Below are positions 1 to 12,186 of a stretch of DNA of 12,186 nucleotides, in pieces. How positions within the stretch are numbered: position 1 is the first letter of the stretch; each line of letters starts with the position of its first letter. This DNA is from Candidatus Methylomirabilis sp. (GTDB taxonomy: Bacteria; DYJV01). Location: assembly GCA_020722945.1 (NCBI GenBank), contig DYJV01000067.1, positions 1 through 12,186 of the forward strand. Direction: 5' to 3'. Below the pieces are notes generated by a model, which did not search any database, was not told the origin of the DNA, and was given only the letters and a program-made list of their open reading frames with translations. A program made the position numbers and the translations under genes.

Positions 1-717
1 CGTCCCACCATTAATCTTTATGTAAGTGATATCCGTACTCCACACCTGATTGGCTCGATTGATATCAAGACCTTTGAGATGATAGGCATGTTTGAAATGT
101 TGCTTATCCGCAATGGTCGTTGAAATGGGTCGGACAGCTAAAACTGCCCGTAATCCTAGCTCTTTGCGATACGCAGAAACTGTATTTAAACTCACACTAA
201 AACCATCTTCTAAAAGCTGTTGATGCACCTTTTGTTCCCCATAAATCGGTATCTCTTCAAAAATTTTGAGTATCTGATTTTTGATAGCAATCTTTTTTTC
301 ATTGACTTTCGGAGTATAATAAAATGGTTTTCGGCTAATCCCCAATAACTCGCATTGTCTTGATAGCGATATTTTTTTTAGCTTAGGCTCTGCTATCTCT
401 TGTTTTTTAGATAAGCCCAAGCTTTTTAGCTTTCCCTCGAGCCAATCTCGCTCTACCGTGATTTTACCGACAACTTTTGCATACTCATCAATCTTTGCTT
501 TGAGTTCGGCATTTTCATCTTTGTATTCTTTGACAGCTTTACTCGGCTCCATCGCAAACTCGGCATTTGCTAGAAATATTGCTTTCCAATTTTGCAAATT
601 TTTCACAAGAACATTGTTGTCAATTGCAATCTGCTGTATCGTTTTTTCACCCTTCAACAATTCAAGCACCAATTTAGTCTTAAATTCTGTACTATATGTT
701 GTTTTTTTTCTACTCAT
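1..717 (-). CDS. IS3-family transposase, OrfA-OrfB in one frame, C-terminus outside the window
   Basis: This is a DDE transposase that cuts and rejoins IS3-family ends. I translated 239 codons from the ATG at 717-715, preceded by GAAAGGG six bases upstream, and found no stop to the window edge. Residues 1-45 form an OrfA helix-turn-helix (YSTEFKTKLVLELL...IQQIA...NLQNWK). Residues about 66-95 look like a leucine-zipper coiled coil. Residues about 108-120 carry the OrfB signature RQCELLGISRKPFYY, followed by the HTH_21 region with IYGEQKVHQQL. The integrase core begins at NQVWSTDITYIK, where D229 is the first catalytic Asp of the DDE triad. In most IS3 members OrfA and OrfB lie in overlapping frames joined by a -1 frameshift; here they are continuous, so the fused transposase would be made directly. 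The remaining catalytic D and E are off-window, so activity cannot be judged. Confidence 0.88.
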   Translation of the reverse strand, partial: MSRKKTTYSTEFKTKLVLELLKGEKTIQQIAIDNNVLVKNLQNWKAIFLANAEFAMEPSKAVKEYKDENAELKAKIDEYAKVVGKITVERDWLEGKLKSLGLSKKQEIAEPKLKKISLSRQCELLGISRKPFYYTPKVNEKKIAIKNQILKIFEEIPIYGEQKVHQQLLEDGFSVSLNTVSAYRKELGLRAVLAVRPISTTIADKQHFKHAYHLKGLDINRANQVWSTDITYIKINGGT

Positions 718-870: not shown

Positions 871-913
871 CTTGATTTACATCAAGATTCTTTTTTCAAT
901 AATTTACTATACT
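871..913 (+). promoter_or_regulatory. FNR-type class II promoter of the DUF2249 operon
   Basis: The 16-base perfect palindrome CTTGATTTACATCAAG (871-886) contains the consensus FNR/FixK site TTGAT-N4-ATCAA, centred at 878.5. A -10-like TATACT lies at 908-913, which predicts transcription from about 920 and puts the box at about -41.5, the classical activating class II position. No -35 hexamer is needed in this arrangement. The ribosome binding site AAGGAAG at 950-956 follows, three bases before the ATG at 960. Which Crp/Fnr-family protein binds cannot be told from the site. Confidence 0.8.
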
Positions 914-959: not shown

Positions 960-1295
960 ATGAAACAAGAGATAACACTAGAGGGTGCTACAATACCATT
1001 TTACAAAGATACGATAGAAGGAATTGTAACATATAGTTTTGATAGTAGTAGATGTGGGCATCCAGAACCTATGATAAATGCGATGGTTGGGCTTCAGAAT
1101 ATCAAAGATAATGAAAAATTAATTATGATAAATCATAAAGCACCAGCAGGACTTTTTCCTAAAGTTGAAAATGATTTTAATTACGAAGTGATAGAGCTTG
1201 AAAATGGGACATTCCAAATTACTTTTTCAAAAAAAGGCGATGGAAGTAATACAAATTTTAATGATAGAGGATGTAGTGGAGGTGGATGTCACTAG
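960..1295 (+). CDS. DUF2249 / TusA-like small protein
   Basis: This 111-residue cytoplasmic protein has no signal peptide. The core around residues 22-90 fits the DUF2249 fold, which is related to the sulfur carrier TusA: a first strand (IVTYSFDSS), then CGHPEPM at 32-38 in the place of the TusA CPxP motif, a helix (INAMVGLQNI), a strand with LIMINHKAP and a final pair ending in FQITFSK. C32 is the obvious candidate for a sulfur- or metal-handling residue. The tail adds a glycine- and cysteine-rich motif (CSGGGCH, C105, C110, H111) absent from plain TusA, possibly a metal site. It is first in an FNR-type operon and lies ten bases upstream of a membrane protein gene. In nitrate- and NO-respiring bacteria such genes often accompany NnrS- or oxidase-like genes. 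Family assignment is moderately sure; the function is unknown. Confidence 0.7.
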   Translation: MKQEITLEGATIPFYKDTIEGIVTYSFDSSRCGHPEPMINAMVGLQNIKDNEKLIMINHKAPAGLFPKVENDFNYEVIELENGTFQITFSKKGDGSNTNFNDRGCSGGGCH

Positions 1296-1304
1296 GAAAA
1301 TCTT

Positions 1305-2537
1305 ATGGCTGTTTCAACAGATTTTGCCCCACCTTTTAGGCTTATTGCCCCATATTTTATATTCGGAATACTTTTTTATATAGGGAGTATTTTATATCTT
1401 TTTGAGATAAATGTATCAAATCTATCTCATTTTTTTCCAAATACACTTTCTTTCATCCATATTTTTTTATTGGGATTTGTAATGATGATTATTTTTGGAG
1501 CAATGGCTCAACTTGTTCCTGTCGTTTTGGAAGTTGGACATTTTGCAATTGATTTATATTATATAATCTATCCACTTTTAACCATTGGTACTTTACTTAT
1601 GGGATATGGATTTGTATCATCTCCAATATTGCTTCCTTTTGGTGGTCTTATTGTTTTGATTGCGATGGGGATTTTTTTATTTGAAACATTAATGACTATC
1701 CAAAAAGTAAAAAAACTCAATTTTGTAATGAAAACAGTTTTGATAGCAAATATTTTTCTTTTTTGTGGACTTATATTTGGGATTATAATGGCTTTGGGTT
1801 ATGGTGGCATTATTGTTGTAAATATAGAAAAATATCTAATTTTTCATCTATTTTTGACATTTTTTGGTTATGTTGGGGTTACGATTATGGGGATGAGTTT
1901 AGTGCTTTTGCCTATGTTTTGGCTTTCTCATGGCTTTAGTTGGAAAAGTATAGAATATAGCTTATATAGCTTTATTCTTAGCGTTATAGCAATTACCTTA
2001 TATATTATCTTTTCAAGTAATTTGCTTCTTTTTATCGGATATGCTTTGATTATCATTTCAGTGGTCTTGTATCTTAATCAAATTTTGATTATTTATAAAA
2101 CAAGAGTAAGAAAAGAGAATGATATCTATTTTAAATCAATATTTTTTTCTTATATTAGCTTATTTATAGCACTTTTGCTTGGAATAAGCTTTTTAATCTT
2201 GCAAAATGAAAAGTTACTCTTGCTTTTTGGTTGGATATTATTGTTTGGCTATATTGGCAATATTATTACTGGACATTTGTATAAAATTGTCCCTTTCTTA
2301 GTATGGTATCAAAGATTTTCACCACTAATAGGGAAGCAAAAAGTACCGATGTTAGCTGACATGGTTCCCAAATTAGGAGCAACTTATCAGTTCTATTTTA
2401 CTGTTTTTGGGCTACTACTTAGTAGTTTTGCAATAGGATTTGGCAATAATGAGCTATTTTACACTGGTGTGAGTTTTCTGTTAATAGGAGGAGTTTTTAT
2501 GTTTAAAAATCTACTTTTTATGATAAATTTTAAATAA
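1305..2537 (+). CDS. Polytopic membrane protein, heme-copper oxidase subunit I-like / NnrS-like
   Basis: This 410-residue inner-membrane protein has about 11-12 hydrophobic segments. Two segments resemble the heme-binding helices of heme-copper oxidase subunit I and NorB: IHIFLLGFVMMIIFGAMAQL with PVV following (H52), and HLFLTFFGYVGVTIMGM with LVLLPMF following (H181). A third conserved-looking stretch is TGHLYKIVPFLVWYQRF (H324). The other histidines at 79 and 209 lie near helix ends. The full catalytic set of an oxidase or NO reductase is not evident, so I read it as a non-canonical member of this fold rather than a terminal oxidase. Its length suits NnrS (about 400 residues), the NO-stress membrane heme protein, but I do not see a clear NnrS signature. 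The start codon lies nine bases after the previous stop with AGGAAAA overlapping it, so the two are cotranslated. The function is inferred only as NO- or denitrification-related membrane chemistry. Confidence 0.65.
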   Translation: MAVSTDFAPPFRLIAPYFIFGILFYIGSILYLFEINVSNLSHFFPNTLSFIHIFLLGFVMMIIFGAMAQLVPVVLEVGHFAIDLYYIIYPLLTIGTLLMGYGFVSSPILLPFGGLIVLIAMGIFLFETLMTIQKVKKLNFVMKTVLIANIFLFCGLIFGIIMALGYGGIIVVNIEKYLIFHLFLTFFGYVGVTIMGMSLVLLPMFWLSHGFSWKSIEYSLYSFILSVIAITLYIIFSSNLLLFIGYALIIISVVLYLNQILIIYKTRVRKENDIYFKSIFFSYISLFIALLLGISFLILQNEKLLLLFGWILLFGYIGNIITGHLYKIVPFLVWYQRFSPLIGKQKVPMLADMVPKLGATYQFYFTVFGLLLSSFAIGFGNNELFYTGVSFLLIGGVFMFKNLLFMINFK

Positions 2538-2556
2538 ATGATATAAAGGATAATTA

Positions 2557-2862
2557 ATGATAACAAAAGAAGAAATTTTTAAAGCAGTATCAACAGTCAA
2601 TGACCCAGAAGTGGGATTTAATCTAGTCGAGATGGGACTTATTTATGATGCTGTATCAAATGAAAAAGATGAAGTAAGAGTAATTATGACTCTAAGTACA
2701 AGAGCTTGTCCCTTGCATCAGATGATTGTTCAATGGGTAGAAGAAGCCGTTTTGAGAGAAATCTCAACAGCACAAAGTGCAGAAGTTGAATTAGTTTGGG
2801 AACCTTCTTGGAATATTGGTATGGCAACACCTGAAGTTAAAGCAAAACTTGGAGGATTTTAA
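2557..2862 (+). CDS. DUF59 / MIP18-family iron-sulfur cluster assembly protein (SufT/PaaD-like)
   Basis: This 101-residue soluble protein has the family hallmarks: NDPEVGFNLVEMGLIYD at 15-31, the strand VRVIMTLSTRACPL with C51 (the usual reactive Cys of the TxxxCP loop), and a C-terminal W-E-P-S-W-N motif (81-86) followed by a helix ending LGGF. Proteins of this type help insert or repair Fe-S clusters. It is the last gene of the operon, 19 bases after the membrane protein, with AAAGGA at 2545-2550 serving the ATG. Next to a DUF2249 protein and an oxidase-like membrane protein, it suggests maturation or repair of a metal centre under low-oxygen or nitrosative conditions. The family call is firm, but the client protein is unknown. 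It is not the standalone SUF operon, because no sufBCDS genes are present. Confidence 0.85.
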   Translation: MITKEEIFKAVSTVNDPEVGFNLVEMGLIYDAVSNEKDEVRVIMTLSTRACPLHQMIVQWVEEAVLREISTAQSAEVELVWEPSWNIGMATPEVKAKLGGF

Positions 2863-3033: not shown

Positions 3034-3071
3034 AATGCGATTTTACTTATAAAAGTTATAAAAGTCTTTGA
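2984..3071 (+). pseudogene. Decayed gene start: strong RBS followed by a frameshifted short frame
   Basis: AAAGGAGGT (2984-2992) sits at ideal distance from an ATG at 2998, but the frame reads M-K-N-F and stops at 3010-3012. The stop arises at a run of five T's (3006-3010). With one extra T the frame would continue as MKNFLTTYIDNLKCDFTYKS and end at the TGA at 3069-3071, inside the left 21-bp repeat. This looks like the 5' end of a gene broken both by a homopolymer slip and by the junction with the rep-containing segment. The original product is not recognisable. An alternative is a regulatory leader with a mini-ORF, or an assembly error in the T run. Confidence 0.4.
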
Positions 3072-3081
3072 CTTAAATCAA
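3040..3081 (-). promoter_or_regulatory. FNR-type class II promoter pointing left
   Basis: On the minus strand the box TTGAT-TTAA-GTCAA (3081-3068) is centred at 3074.5, and a -10-like TAAAAT lies at 3045-3040. The distance from box centre to -10 is 29.5 bases, the same as in the DUF2249 promoter and within one base of the napA promoter. The first 21 bases match the napA promoter at 20 positions, and the -10 hexamer is identical. No convincing gene lies downstream on this strand. On the plus strand the same palindrome has no suitably placed -10 and would only read against rep. Confidence 0.55.
3061..3081. repeat. Left copy of a 21-bp inverted repeat flanking the rep module
   Basis: AAAGTCTTTGACTTAA followed by ATCAA is, with one mismatch (20/21), the reverse complement of 4360-4380. 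The similarity stops abruptly at the outer edge. The two copies enclose about 1.3 kb holding rep and its iterons. Each copy includes a full FNR-type box, so the repeat may reflect promoter duplication, element ends or recombination sites. Confidence 0.75.
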
Positions 3082-3097
3082 TTTAGTATAAAACCCT

Positions 3098-4030
3098 CTA
3101 AAACAGTGTATTTGGCTTTTGCATCTTGAGTTTGCTAATTTTCTTAACAGTCTGATACAAAGCCGTATCTTTTTTCTTCATATCACCAAAGTGGATAGTA
3201 TATTTTTTATCTTTACCCATGCTTCTAAGCTCTCCATCTGCATCAAAATAGAACTCATTCCCATCATCATCAACAGCGATAATCTTACCAGCATTAAAAT
3301 TGGCACACAAGAAGATATAAAACTTTTCAAGTTCTTTTACTTTGATATTTTTCCAACCGATATATTTGTCATCAGGGTCAAATGTCCAATTTAGCTTTAA
3401 AATCGCTCCTGTTTGCTTCCCACCTTTTTTAACCTTCTCAACAACCAAATTTTTAAAAAAAGGTGTTAAATCTTTCACAATTCGTTTAAATTCTTTGTTG
3501 ATATTTGCTTTCCCCCAATTTGCAATGCCTATTAAGTCTAAAAACTCTGGATAATCAATCGTCAAAAATCCTGTCATTCTAAACTGTTTTAACATCCGAT
3601 AGATGGTTTTTGAGTTGGTTTTGCTCAAAGACACAAACTGCTCCAGCTCAAAACGAGTAAAATTACTTGTTACAGCATTTAAAATATATTCAAACTTTTT
3701 ATTTGTTTGGATTAAAACAGTATCTTTTGTTTTATTAATTTTATATTCTGTAAATAAAACAAATTCTATATACTCTTCTTCATTCTCGATAGGCATAGTA
3801 CTTACCAATAATTTTTTATATGTTTTTTTAATATCCGATATAAATCTTTCTCTCGAAGTTGATTTATAATCAATTAGCTCTTTTATCTTTTCAAAACTAA
3901 GTTCTATCTCCGATAAGTTTTTATCTCTCATTTGTTGGCAAACAGCGAAAAATATATTAAACTCGATTTCTGTAAAGTGATTAAAATTGACTAAATTCAT
4001 ATTGTTATGATACTTCACAACTTCATTCAT
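3098..4030 (-). CDS. Rep_3-family plasmid replication initiator
   Basis: This 310-residue protein resembles RepB/RepE-type initiators that bind iterons and open a plasmid origin. The first winged-helix region covers about residues 12-120 (FNHFTEIEFNIFFAVCQQM, then ELSFEKIKELIDYK). The second starts near 123 with the typical NFTRFELEQFVSL, followed by KTIYRMLKQFRMTG, the helix EFLDLIGIANWGK and FKRIVKDLTPFFKNL. Length is normal for the family. The basic C-terminal stretch (residues 275-310) is lysine-rich. The start at 4030 is supported by AAAGGA six bases upstream and a consensus promoter just behind it. Iterons lie directly upstream, the classical arrangement. No partition, relaxase or toxin-antitoxin genes are visible. 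The frame is intact, so either the window is part of a plasmid or chromid, or a plasmid integrated recently. Confidence 0.88.
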   Translation of the reverse strand: MNEVVKYHNNMNLVNFNHFTEIEFNIFFAVCQQMRDKNLSEIELSFEKIKELIDYKSTSRERFISDIKKTYKKLLVSTMPIENEEEYIEFVLFTEYKINKTKDTVLIQTNKKFEYILNAVTSNFTRFELEQFVSLSKTNSKTIYRMLKQFRMTGFLTIDYPEFLDLIGIANWGKANINKEFKRIVKDLTPFFKNLVVEKVKKGGKQTGAILKLNWTFDPDDKYIGWKNIKVKELEKFYIFLCANFNAGKIIAVDDDGNEFYFDADGELRSMGKDKKYTIHFGDMKKKDTALYQTVKKISKLKMQKPNTLF

Positions 4031-4049
4031 AAAAATCCTTTTTTTATAA

Positions 4050-4079
4050 ATTATAACAAGTTATAGTGTTAATTGTCAA
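4050..4079 (-). promoter_or_regulatory. Sigma-70-type promoter of rep with iteron-like operator
   Basis: On the minus strand, TTGACA (4079-4074) and TATAAT (4055-4050) are both perfect hexamers, 18 bases apart. Between them on the plus strand, GTTATAGTGTTAATTGT (4060-4076) matches the inverse of the 22-bp iteron at 16 of 17 positions. An inverted iteron half over the promoter is the usual autorepression site of Rep_3 proteins, where Rep dimers shut down their own gene. The promoter is seen directly; the autoregulation is inferred from the family. Confidence 0.75.
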
Positions 4080-4098
4080 TACGAACACTATAATAAAA

Positions 4099-4180
4099 TA
4101 CAATTTACACTATAACTACATACAATTTACACTATAACTACATACAATTTACACTATAACTACATACAATTTACACTATA
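4099..4180. repeat. Iteron array (22-bp direct repeats) of a replication origin
   Basis: The unit TACAATTTACACTATAAC followed by TACA occurs three times in perfect tandem (4099-4120, 4121-4142, 4143-4164), followed by a 16-base partial copy (4165-4180). A further fragment, ACACTATAA at 4085-4093, continues the series toward rep. The 22-base period equals two helical turns, so all copies face the same side, as expected for Rep binding. The adjacent A+T-rich stretch (about 4183-4215) could be the unwinding region. I see no confident DnaA box. There are no spacers, so this is not CRISPR. Confidence 0.88.
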
Positions 4181-4218
4181 GCCTTACATTATATAAAAGA
4201 TTTAACAAAATATAGATG

Positions 4219-4256: not shown

Positions 4257-4359
4257 AAAATTAGACTATAAATGAGCTAGTTTTCATTGAATTTGAGAGT
4301 TAAATAATTAAATTAGCACAATGACCAAATATAGATATGTTAGAATTAGAATTAAAAAC

Positions 4360-4380
4360 TTGACTTAAGTCAAAGACTTT
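4360..4380. repeat. Right copy of the 21-bp inverted repeat
   Basis: This is the reverse complement of 3061-3081 with a single mismatch (G at 4369 in the centre of the box). It forms the FNR-type box of napA plus the following AGACTTT. Beyond the repeat there is only scattered similarity to the left copy, chiefly the shared TAAAAT -10 hexamer. Confidence 0.75.
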
Positions 4381-4439: not shown

Positions 4440-7298
4440 ATGTCTTTAAATCGTAGAGATTTTTTAAAGAGTTCTGCAGTAGCTAGTGCGGCTGCGGCTA
4501 TTGGTATGAATATTCCATCAAAACTTAAAGCTGATGCCCAAGAGGCTGAAGCGGGTTGGAGATGGGATAAAGCAGCTTGTAGATTCTGTGGTACAGGCTG
4601 TGGGATAATGATGGCAACTAAAAATGGGAAAATAGTCGCAGTAAAAGGCGACCCAGCAGCTCCAGTAAATAGAGGGCTTAACTGCATAAAAGGCTATTTT
4701 AATGCAAAAATAATGTATGGTGCAGATAGACTTAGAACCCCATTACTTAGAATGAATGACGCAGGAGAATTTGACAAAAAAGGTAAATTTACTCCAATTT
4801 CATGGGAACGAGCTTTTGATGAAATGGCTAAACATATGAAAATAGCATTAAAAGCAAGTGGGCCTGAAGGAGTGGGTGTTTTTGCGAGTGGACAATATAC
4901 CATCATGGAAGGTTATGCAGCTTCAAAAATGATGCGTGGTGGATTTCGTTCAAATGCATTTGACCCAAATGCTAGACACTGTATGGCAAGTGCAGTTACT
5001 GGATTTTATCAAACTTTTGGGATAGATGAACCAAGTGGGTGTTATGATGATATAGAACTTACAGATACTGTTGTTTCATGGGGTTCAAATATGGCAGAGA
5101 TGCACCCAATTTTATGGTCAAGGGTAACTGATAGAAAATTAAGTGACCCAGAAAAAGTTAAAATCGTTAGTATCCAAACCTATACCCATCGTACAAGTGA
5201 TATGGCAGATATTGAAATCATATTTACTCCAAATACTGACCTTGCTCTTTGGAATTATATTGCTCATGAGATAGTTTACAATCATCCTGAAGCTATTGAT
5301 TGGGATTTCGTCAACAAACACATTGTTTTTGCTTCGCAACCTGTAAATATTGGTTATGGACTTAGAAGGTCTGATGAAAAATCTATTAAAGACGGAAAAT
5401 ATAGCGATAAAGAGATGCAAACCATATCTAAAGAGATGTCTAAAGTTGTATCTGCAACAGAAGCTCCAGCACTCGCACCTTTTGGATATAAAGAAGGCGA
5501 TATCATGAAAAATGAAACGCCAATGGTTAACGATAAACCTAATGTTCTAAAACACTGGGAGATATCTTTTGAAGAGTATAAAAAATTCTTAGCACCTTAT
5601 ACGCTTGATTATGTTGCTAAAATTTCTAAAGGTAATCCTGATGAACCGATAGAAAAATTTAAAGAAAAACTCAAAGCATTAGCTGATTTATATATCGAGA
5701 AAGAGAGAAAAGTAGTCTCTTTTTGGACAATGGGAATGAATCAACATACTCGTGGAACTTGGGTAAATACACTTTCTTATAATGTTCACTTTTTACTTAA
5801 TAAACAAGCAAAACCAGGGAGTGGAGCATTTTCTCTTACAGGTCAACCATCGGCTTGTGGAACAGCTAGAGAAGTTGGAACTTTTACTCATAGATTACCT
5901 GCTGATATGATGGTCGATAATCCGAAACATAGAGAAATTACAGAAAAAGCATGGAATTTACCAGCTGGAACCATTAATCCAATTGGAAACCAACACATTA
6001 TGAAGATTCATAGAGACCTTGAAGATGGTTTCATGAAATTTGCATGGGTTAATGTTTGTAATCCATATCAAGATAGTGCAAGTGCTACGCATTGGATTAA
6101 AGCTGCTAGAGAAATGGATAATTTTATTGTAACAAGTGATGGTTATCCAGGCGTAAGTGCAAAAGTAAGTGACCTTGTTTTGCCATCTGCTATGATTTAT
6201 GAAAAATGGGGTGGATATGGTAATGCGGAAAGAAGAACACAACTTTGGAGACAACAAGTTTTACCAGTAGGGGATGCTATGAGTGATACTTGGCAATGGG
6301 TTGAGCTTAGTAAAAGATTTACCGTTAAAGATTTGTGGGGAGAATGGCCACTTAGAGGAAAAGATGAAAAAGGAAATCCCAATAAACTTCCTAGCGTTAT
6401 AGAACAAGCAAAAGCGATGGGTTACAACGAAAACACAACTATGTTTGAAATTCTTTTTGCCAATACAAAAGCAAAAAGTTATAAATTAGATAAAGAAGAC
6501 CCTATTCAAAAAGGCTATGATAATACAGAAGGCTTTGGAGATAGCCGAAATGTGGTAGGAAGTGATGGTAAAGTTTTTAAAGGTTATGGCTTTTTTATTC
6601 AAAAATATTTATTTGAAGAGTATGCAGCTTTTGGTAGAGGTCATGCCCACGATTTAGCAGATTTTGATACCTATCACAGAGTAAGAGGATTAAAATGGCC
6701 TGTTGTTGATGGTAAAGAGACTCAATGGAGATTTAATGCCAAATATGACCCTTATGCAAAAAAATATGGTGCAGAAACTGGTCATACAGAGTTTGCTTTT
6801 TATGGGAAAATTGCAAAAGAGTTAAAACAAGGAGATTTAAAAGGAATAACAGACCCAAAAGAGACAAAACCAAAACCTCTTACCAATAAAGCCAAAATAT
6901 TTGCTAGACCTTATATGGATCCACCTGAAATTCCAGATACAGAGTATCCAGTTTGGTTATGTACAGGTCGTGTATTGGAGCATTGGCATAGTGGAACAAT
7001 GACCATGAGAGTTCCAGAGCTTTATCGAGCAGTTCCAGAGGCATTATGCTATATGAATCCAAAAGACGCAGAGACTTATGGAGTAAAACAAGGTGAGCTT
7101 TGTTGGGTTGAAAGCAGAAGAGGAAAAGTTAAAGCTAGAGTAGAGACAAGAGGTAGAAATAGACCAAGCAGAGGTTTAGTTTTTGTTCCATGGTTTGATG
7201 AAAAAGTACTTATAAACAAAGTATCTCTTGATGCAACTTGTCCACAATCTAAACAAACAGATTATAAAAAATGTGCAGTAAAAATTTATAAAGTATAA
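4440..7298 (+). CDS. napA: Periplasmic nitrate reductase, catalytic subunit NapA
   Basis: NapA reduces nitrate to nitrite in the periplasm at a Mo-bis-molybdopterin guanine dinucleotide centre. The N-terminus is a Tat signal ([17 protein letters not shown]), so the folded, cofactor-loaded enzyme is exported. The [4Fe-4S] cluster is held by C47, C50, C54 and C82 (CRFCGTGC ... NCIKGYF, with the conserved Lys K84). The Mo ligand is C181 in [10 protein letters not shown]. The C-terminal molybdopterin-binding region with [17 protein letters not shown] (about 841-857) is intact. At 952 residues it is about 120 longer than E. coli NapA. Much of the excess sits near residues 305-420, a lysine/glutamate-rich insertion common to epsilonproteobacterial enzymes. 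The start is fixed by AAGGAGG six bases upstream and by the Tat motif. It is first in the operon, behind an FNR-type promoter, and 31 bases before napG. Confidence 0.97.
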
Positions 7299-11884: not shown

Positions 11885-11901
11885 ATTGATGATGGATTTC
11901 T

Positions 11902-12186
11902 ATGGATAGCATTAAAGAGTATCTTTTAAAACAGAGTCTATTTGAGGGATTAAATAGTGAAGAGATAGAACTACTTTGCAACTCATCTATCTTAAAAAAA
12001 TATTATGTTGGTAATATTTTATTTTACGAAAAAGAAGAACAACATAGTATTTATTATTTAGTCCAAGGTGAACTCAAAGTTTATAAAGTAAATAGGATAG
12101 ATAACGAAATATTTCTTTATAATCTATTTAATGGCACTTTAATCTCAGAAATTACTGACTTAGATGGAAGTATTAAATGTTTTGCT
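11902..12186 (+). CDS. Crp/Fnr-family transcriptional regulator, N-terminal part
   Basis: The 95 visible residues match the cyclic-nucleotide-binding-like beta-roll of Crp/Fnr regulators: LKQSLFEGLNSEEIELLCNS, a beta-roll core with the turn IYYLVQGELKVYKV, then NEIFLYNLFNGTLISEIT. The helix-turn-helix domain lies outside the window. No Fnr-type N-terminal cysteine cluster is visible; the only cysteines so far are C26 and C93. It is therefore not an oxygen-sensing [4Fe-4S] Fnr by sequence and more likely belongs to the Crp, NssR or Dnr-like branch. The ATG at 11902 lies 17 bases after the PAS gene; upstream ATGs at 11889 and 11892 are in a frame that stops at once. The ribosome binding site is weak (GGA). 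As the last visible gene after nap, it is a candidate activator of the FNR-type boxes in this window. Confidence 0.82.
   Translation, partial: MDSIKEYLLKQSLFEGLNSEEIELLCNSSILKKYYVGNILFYEKEEQHSIYYLVQGELKVYKVNRIDNEIFLYNLFNGTLISEITDLDGSIKCFA

Follow-up and report, generated by a model that had tools for sequence, protein, structure and literature searches.

A conserved three-gene operon behind an FNR-type promoter: a DUF2249 protein, an oxidase-like membrane protein and a DUF59 protein

When a DUF2249 gene, a gene for an oxidase-like membrane protein and a DUF59 gene are found side by side, do they form a functional unit, and what might this unit do? The question is raised by contig DYJV01000067.1 of a Candidatus Methylomirabilis assembly, analysed here over all of its 12,186 nucleotides (the 'window'), where an initial annotation had taken the three genes for a tightly packed, FNR-controlled system. 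The packing is as described: the three open reading frames (Table 1) are co-directional and separated by gaps of 9 and 19 bases, and their order is kept in relatives. We conclude that the genes for the DUF2249 protein, the 12-helix protein and the DUF59 protein make up a compact operon preceded by a predicted class-II promoter of the FNR type, and that this module is real, conserved and without a name. As a set, the cassette appears never to have been studied before: in a literature search, no paper was found that names DUF2249 and DUF59 together.

Table 1. Features of the cassette and of the neighbouring nap cluster in the window
Feature	Position	Strand	Basis
FNR-type palindrome TTGATTTACATCAA	872-885	+	Sequence; conserved in homologous loci; counts compared with shuffles
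Putative -10-like hexamer TATACT	908-913	+	Read from the sequence
DUF2249 protein, 111 aa, TusA/SirA-like core and flexible C-terminal Cys tail CSGGGCH	960-1295	+	PF10006, TusA profile, model, Foldseek
12-TM membrane protein, 410 aa, heme-copper oxidase subunit I fold	1305-2537	+	AlphaFold; structure and profile match
DUF59 (MIP18/SufT-like) Fe-S cluster assembly-type protein, 101 aa, invariant C51	2557-2862	+	PF01883
Second FNR-type palindrome TTGACTTAAGTCAA	4360-4373	+	Stands before napA; co-regulation probable
napA-like gene, first of the nap cluster	4440-7298	+	Named from translation

Conservation of the gene set and of its promoter

With the membrane protein alone as search query, 80 loci were retrieved, nearly all of them from Campylobacterota. 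DUF2249 lay directly upstream of the membrane gene in 77 of these loci, and DUF59 downstream of it in 74, that is, in 74 of the 77 where the contig continues (three of the six loci lacking DUF59 stop at a contig edge). The best match, 81% identical, is filed under Desulfosporosinus, and the contig in question is probably misfiled. Among 192 diverse genomes, the membrane family was present in 12 further genomes at 19 to 34% identity, and in at least nine of these 12 the membrane gene is adjoined by DUF2249, by DUF59 or by both.

Relatives in Thermus, Sinorhizobium/Ensifer and haloarchaea keep similar partners, often inside nar/nir/nor clusters. The gene order in T. thermophilus is narGHJIK, drpA, drpB, a small four-TM protein, a protoglobin, the membrane gene and DUF59; in Ensifer it is norECBQD, hemN, DUF2249, the membrane gene, DUF2249, DUF59, nnrS, nirK, nirV and a Crp/Fnr gene. 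Plasmid pSymA of S. meliloti has an arrangement like that of Ensifer, with insertions, while in Haloprofundus nirK is followed by three DUF2249 genes and then the membrane gene. All three cassette genes are carried by an 83-kb plasmid in Aliarcobacter butzleri. Several distant cassettes have no nitrogen genes nearby. That three unrelated anaerobic genes are clustered here by chance is scarcely credible, given that the same order is found in most of the 80 loci and recurs in rhizobia, Thermus and others. The oxidase-like protein, DUF2249 and DUF59 had been proposed to belong together, and they do constitute a conserved module, placed repeatedly in nitrate-respiration and denitrification clusters across phyla.

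Hemerythrin genes adjoin the membrane gene in genomes G081 and G012, as judged by profile match, and apparently also in G168 and G210, as read from the sequence. The predicted constant core would be a heme b membrane protein, a cysteine-tailed carrier and an Fe-S assembly protein, with NO- or O2-binding proteins (hemerythrin, protoglobin) as optional partners. Second paralogues of the membrane protein occur in some Campylobacterota at most 3 kb from the first copy; those at L015:10719-11987 and L049:11136-12401 are divergent (24 to 30% identity).

The promoter is conserved along with the genes. TTGATTTACATCAA is a perfect FNR palindrome centred about 41 bases 5' of the predicted transcription start, and the TATACT hexamer would stand at the class-II distance from it. 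A predicted site of the form TTGATN4ATCAA is therefore present near position -41.5 of a predicted start, and it is kept between species. When the 250 bases upstream of the DUF2249 start were searched, TTGA-N6-TCAA was found in 62 of 72 usable homologous loci, typically 60 to 75 bases before that start, compared to about 0.8 expected from shuffled sequence. Together with the conservation of the partners, this argues for operon and promoter having been selected together, and the near-ideal FNR-type promoter reported in the initial annotation is confirmed.

In the window, TTGA-N6-TCAA occurs three times, compared to an expectation of 0.8 after shuffling (three are reached in 11 of 300 shuffled sequences). 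The narrower TTGAYTTANRTCAA has only five occurrences in the 2.5 Mb genome, of which three fall within the window. Besides the palindrome of the cassette, FNR-type palindromes lie at 3068 and 4360. The position of the latter, TTGACTTAAGTCAA, makes co-regulation of napA with the cassette probable; no obvious gene follows the copy at 3068. Both lie within a 24-bp inverted repeat (92%; 3061-3084 and 4357-4380) that flanks a replication module. This module (3098-4194) comprises a Rep_3-type plasmid replication initiator (minus strand; Rep3_N E 1.8e-24) and, beside it, four 22-bp tandem iteron-like repeats (4085-4194). With a plasmid-type origin between cassette and napA, the nitrate-respiration genes may be plasmid-borne or may lie beside an integrated plasmid. 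The contig starts inside an IS3-type transposase (1-700, minus strand), which suggests a mobile context, and its ends do not overlap. At the other end, the nap cluster is followed by a gene for a Crp/Fnr-family regulator (11901-12186), which is cut off by the contig edge.

Fold and heme ligands of the membrane protein

Neither Pfam nor NCBIfam gave a match for the membrane protein. Its AlphaFold model, obtained with 48 relatives (pLDDT 93.5), has 12 TM helices in three four-helix repeats, the fold of heme-copper oxidase (HCO) subunit I. The model matches CcoN of cbb3 oxidase with a Z of 35.1 (384 residues, 3.1 Å) and NorB with a Z of 31.7 to 33.6 (Foldseek E 2.5e-6). Run against the PDB, the family profile also picks out CcoN from sequence information only (E 9e-10), so that a profile comparison with HCO subunit I, as suggested in the initial annotation, gives a match.

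In the profile alignment, TM1-3 of the family fall on TM9-11 of CcoN, with H52 on H347, and, at a weaker signal, TM5-9 fall on TM1-5 of CcoN, with H181 on H60. In the cbb3 structure, H60 and H347 of CcoN are the axial ligands of the low-spin heme b. H52 and H181 are invariant in 100 of 100 sequences and line up, in a permuted alignment, with H328 and H53 of NorB; they would thus correspond to the axial pair of a low-spin heme b. They are located about seven residues into TM2 and TM6, whereas H324, some 15 residues deeper, is about 22 residues into TM10. The positive loops place the N-terminus inside, and therefore H52 and H181 about seven residues from the periplasmic ends of their helices. 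H324 is a histidine in 82 of 100 sequences, and otherwise M, Q, F, Y or S. The earlier reading, in which histidines of two helices resembled the heme sites of oxidases and NorB, stands for H52 and H181, best matched by the low-spin heme b ligands, and fails for H324. Convergence of all three histidines, also envisaged at that stage, is not supported, only H52 and H181 being both invariant and level; a three-histidine metal cluster was rejected, H324 being variable and deeper.

The ligands of the catalytic site present a different picture. The position of the b3 ligand (50) is occupied by W, F or L in nearly all sequences, and the CuB/FeB histidines of TM6 and TM7 have no counterparts in the permuted alignment to HCOs, compared to canonical histidines kept in 30 of 30 reference HCOs. 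The family therefore does not carry the set formed by the high-spin heme b3 ligand and the CuB/FeB histidines (TM6, TM7 and TM10). Since the b3, CuB and TM7 ligands are absent, the membrane protein is not an oxidase or NO reductase, in agreement with the initial impression of an incomplete oxidase: the HCO fold is entire and the catalytic ligands are missing. From the model and the alignments, we infer that it keeps one low-spin bis-His heme b and that the catalytic site is gone. That the membrane protein should act as a heme-copper enzyme reducing NO or oxygen, as might be imagined from the complete fold and the adjoining nor genes of rhizobia, is very improbable in view of the residues at the b3 iron ligand position and the missing CuB/FeB counterparts; in addition, H324 is not universal and the operon has no NorC/CcoO-like partner.

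Owing to the internal symmetry of the fold, structural alignment alone does not decide whether the protein is permuted with respect to HCOs. Profile-profile scores against all 30 HCOs were 93 for the sequential order, 104 for the permuted order (four-helix rotation) and 86 for the other rotation; against the 12 shorter HCOs they were 86, 126 and 86, respectively. Eight random subsamples (some subsets yielded no parsable score) gave the permuted order a clear lead five times, a tie twice and a defeat once. Repeat-by-repeat sums favour it by about 28 and 50. The first repeat of the membrane protein best matches HCO repeat 3 (69), the second matches repeats 3 and 1 (58 and 45), and none recognisably matches the CuB-bearing HCO repeat 2. 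Judging from these sequence profiles, the membrane protein is likely to be an HCO fold circularly permuted by four helices.

The Thermus cluster also encodes a standalone protein with four TM helices and about 144 aa (L102:7539-7970 and L108:131-565), which matches a single repeat of the HCO fold (hhalign E 2e-9 to the TM10 region of NorB) and keeps an HVHAG motif. It is possibly a one-third oxidase repeat.

Membership in the NnrS family, which the initial annotation had singled out for comparison, was rejected. Neither the membrane protein nor 47 relatives gave a Pfam match to NnrS (PF05940), and genome G000 had no NnrS match. The family profile and NnrS match weakly (E 0.01, probability 4%, from three NnrS sequences), and the Ensifer and S. 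meliloti clusters that hold the membrane gene carry nnrS as a gene of its own.

The two soluble partners

DUF2249 proteins are found throughout prokaryotes and have, to our knowledge, no known biochemical role, although DrpA and DrpB influence nitrate respiration in Thermus and denitrification strongly induces haloarchaeal DUF2249 genes. The protein of the cassette covers the whole PF10006 domain with E 3.2e-5, its 24.1 bits being below the Pfam cut-off of 29.5; the Ensifer counterpart reaches 102.8 bits. It matches the TusA profile weakly (E 0.002). In the structural model (pLDDT 84.6) the tail is disordered, and the core is matched by Foldseek to the SirA-like 3hz7 (TMt 0.75, E 0.02). The catalytic CPxP motif of TusA is absent: HPEP is found here and PPEP in most relatives, with no Cys directly before PxP. 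The CSGGGCH tail noticed in the initial annotation is real, and amounts to a local elaboration of a single C-terminal cysteine (C105) present in 74 of 80 homologues. This exact form is found in a few close relatives, and the Ensifer DUF2249 protein independently ends in GCDCCCGSSSGH. The combination of a carrier fold and a flexible Cys near the C-terminus suggests that the protein may ferry sulfur, metal or NO groups.

The third protein had been described as an iron-sulfur assembly protein, and its family is confirmed: it matches PF01883 with E 1e-13 and 51.8 bits, compared to a cut-off of 23.5, and its C51 is invariant in 81 of 81 sequences. The nearest solved structures are TM0487 and TTHB138.

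Candidate functions and related systems

We tentatively favour, at somewhat less than even chances, the reading that the cassette encodes one membrane-to-cytosol redox module serving the protection, maturation or repair of iron centres during nitrate respiration. Low oxygen and nitrate-type signals would switch the operon on via an FNR-like regulator. The membrane part, a degenerate HCO fold with its b3-CuB centre presumably lost, would keep a bis-His heme b bound by H52 (TM2) and H181 (TM6) near the periplasmic face. Its cytosolic parts, which it would contact directly, would be the TusA-like DUF2249 protein with a swinging C-terminal Cys and the DUF59 protein, which belongs to a type known for passing on Fe-S clusters. 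The heme might pass electrons between the quinol pool and the DUF2249/DUF59 pair, or register NO, and the pair may protect, mature or repair Fe-S or other iron centres amid nitrate, nitrite and NO chemistry.

Several observations count in favour of the iron-centre reading: the conservation of partners across phyla together with the FNR-type promoter, the membership of DUF59 in an Fe-S assembly family, the hemerythrin and protoglobin neighbours, and a neighbourhood that includes nar, nir, nor, nap and heme d1 genes. An HCO fold in which only the low-spin heme ligand pair is invariant speaks for the redox module. NnrS can be added as a functional analogue (PMC9246220), as can a haloarchaeal P-loop Fe-S carrier that contains a DUF2249 domain, all four DUF2249 genes of H. 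mediterranei being induced under denitrification (PMC11218638). On the other side stand the distant cassettes devoid of nitrogen genes nearby, the only experimental data on the related DUF2249 proteins DrpA and DrpB that point to regulation (PMC6282519), and the results of a co-occurrence analysis. Among the 192 genomes, a comparison set that includes only two Campylobacterota, the family was weakly tied to NarG (P = 0.047, borderline) and not significantly to NorB (P = 0.19), so the co-occurrence with denitrification genes considered in the initial annotation is borderline for the former and not significant for the latter. In counts confined to Campylobacterota carriers, NirS was present in 14 of the 17 sampled, and NosZ in 27 of 50.

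In the host genome (98% complete, 5.8% contaminated), no match to NirS, NirK, cNorB or NrfA was found. The host therefore probably only reduces nitrate to nitrite, and nitrosative stress would be limited here. Taken with the NorB result, this makes a role with NO plausible and not assured. A strict dependence on NO or nitrite reductase was discarded, as neither the host genome nor the 192-genome test supports it. Of the two activities first suggested for the system, the building or repair of a metal centre would fit the partners (DUF59, hemerythrin), while NO handling is possible rather than proven.

A sensory module for nitrate respiration is a possible, if doubtful, alternative. The heme protein would read the membrane redox state, nitrate or NO, and DUF2249 would relay this state to the transcription machinery, like DrpA/DrpB in Thermus, the membrane attachment of DrpB being to the membrane protein of the cassette family. 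In Thermus, drpA-drpB are indeed followed, after a few genes, by the membrane gene and DUF59, so that the membrane protein is an obvious candidate for the partner of DrpB. When both Drp proteins are missing, expression of nar and dnr loses its nitrate dependence, and DrpB is cytosolic, yet binds the membrane through an unidentified partner (PMC6282519). Regulators are also found near the cassette: a TetR-type regulator fused to two DUF2249 domains (L107:2691-3905) stands directly upstream of a membrane-protein relative, and a Crp/Fnr gene lies at most 3.5 kb upstream of the cassette in 19 of 53 Campylobacterota loci. However, a sensor of this kind would not require DUF59, which is conserved as well as DUF2249, and DrpB consists of DUF1858 and two DUF2249 domains, whereas its Campylobacterota counterpart has one domain only, followed by a Cys tail. 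Sensing and iron-centre maintenance are compatible with each other.

It is improbable that the cassette encodes an assembly or metalation factor for one nitrate-respiration enzyme (Nap, cytochrome cd1, NO reductase or N2O reductase), for which electrons or heme would come from the heme protein and a cluster from DUF59. A napA homologue does follow the cassette at a distance of no more than 4 kb in 12 of the 54 loci with enough flank, siroheme/heme d1 genes (Met8, AhbAB/NirDL, NirJ, NirE) recur around Campylobacterota cassettes, and a NirJ-like radical SAM gene sits between the membrane gene and DUF59 at L095:7738-8901. However, no single client suits all the hosts, since the cassette is present in NirK organisms, NirS organisms, Nar-only Thermus and the Nap-only genome analysed here.

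That a widespread family with a permuted HCO fold, devoid of the catalytic centre and left with only a bis-His heme b, serves as the membrane part of a system for electron transfer or sensing, its cytosolic part being a TusA-like carrier with a Cys tail and an Fe-S assembly protein, is a conjecture that we hold with considerable reserve. If true, it would link the respiratory chain to iron-centre repair, and an HCO fold in a non-enzymatic role would be a new variant. For DUF2249, one constant partner in the membrane and another of the Fe-S assembly type are now at hand, so that its role can be tested within one operon, and a non-catalytic, probably permuted HCO fold is a new data point on the evolution of the superfamily. 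Campylobacterota are major sulfide oxidisers and nitrate reducers, and their cassette is a candidate for nitrogen-oxide tolerance.

Each protein can be set beside a known system. The membrane protein shares with the heme-copper oxidases CcoN and NorB the 12 helices, the three-repeat architecture and a His pair that matches the axial ligands of the low-spin heme; it differs from them by the loss of the b3 and CuB/FeB ligands, by the lack of oxidase partner subunits and by a best alignment that is permuted. The DUF2249 protein recalls TusA/SirA by its predicted core, and TsuA-TsuB (YeeE-YeeD) by the pairing of a small carrier-fold protein with a membrane protein; in contrast, the catalytic Cys-Pro of TusA is replaced by His-Pro or Pro-Pro, and the conserved Cys is found in the C-terminal tail. 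The DUF59 protein has the PF01883 domain of MIP18, SufT and PaaD, with the invariant Cys in the context S-T-x-x-C-P, but does not reach the scores that NCBIfam requires of the SUF-associated, SufT and PaaD equivalogs, which places it in a separate subgroup. DrpA and DrpB of Thermus thermophilus are likewise DUF2249 proteins of nitrate respiration encoded near a membrane-family gene and a DUF59 gene, but DrpA is reported to be periplasmic and neither has a C-terminal Cys tail. Finally, NnrS resembles the membrane protein in being a 12-TM protein of about 400 aa, with His and Pro motifs that are loosely similar; it is a heme membrane protein of denitrifiers under NnrR/NsrR/DNR control. NnrS does not remove NO, and protects the iron pool against dinitrosyl iron complexes (PMC9246220).
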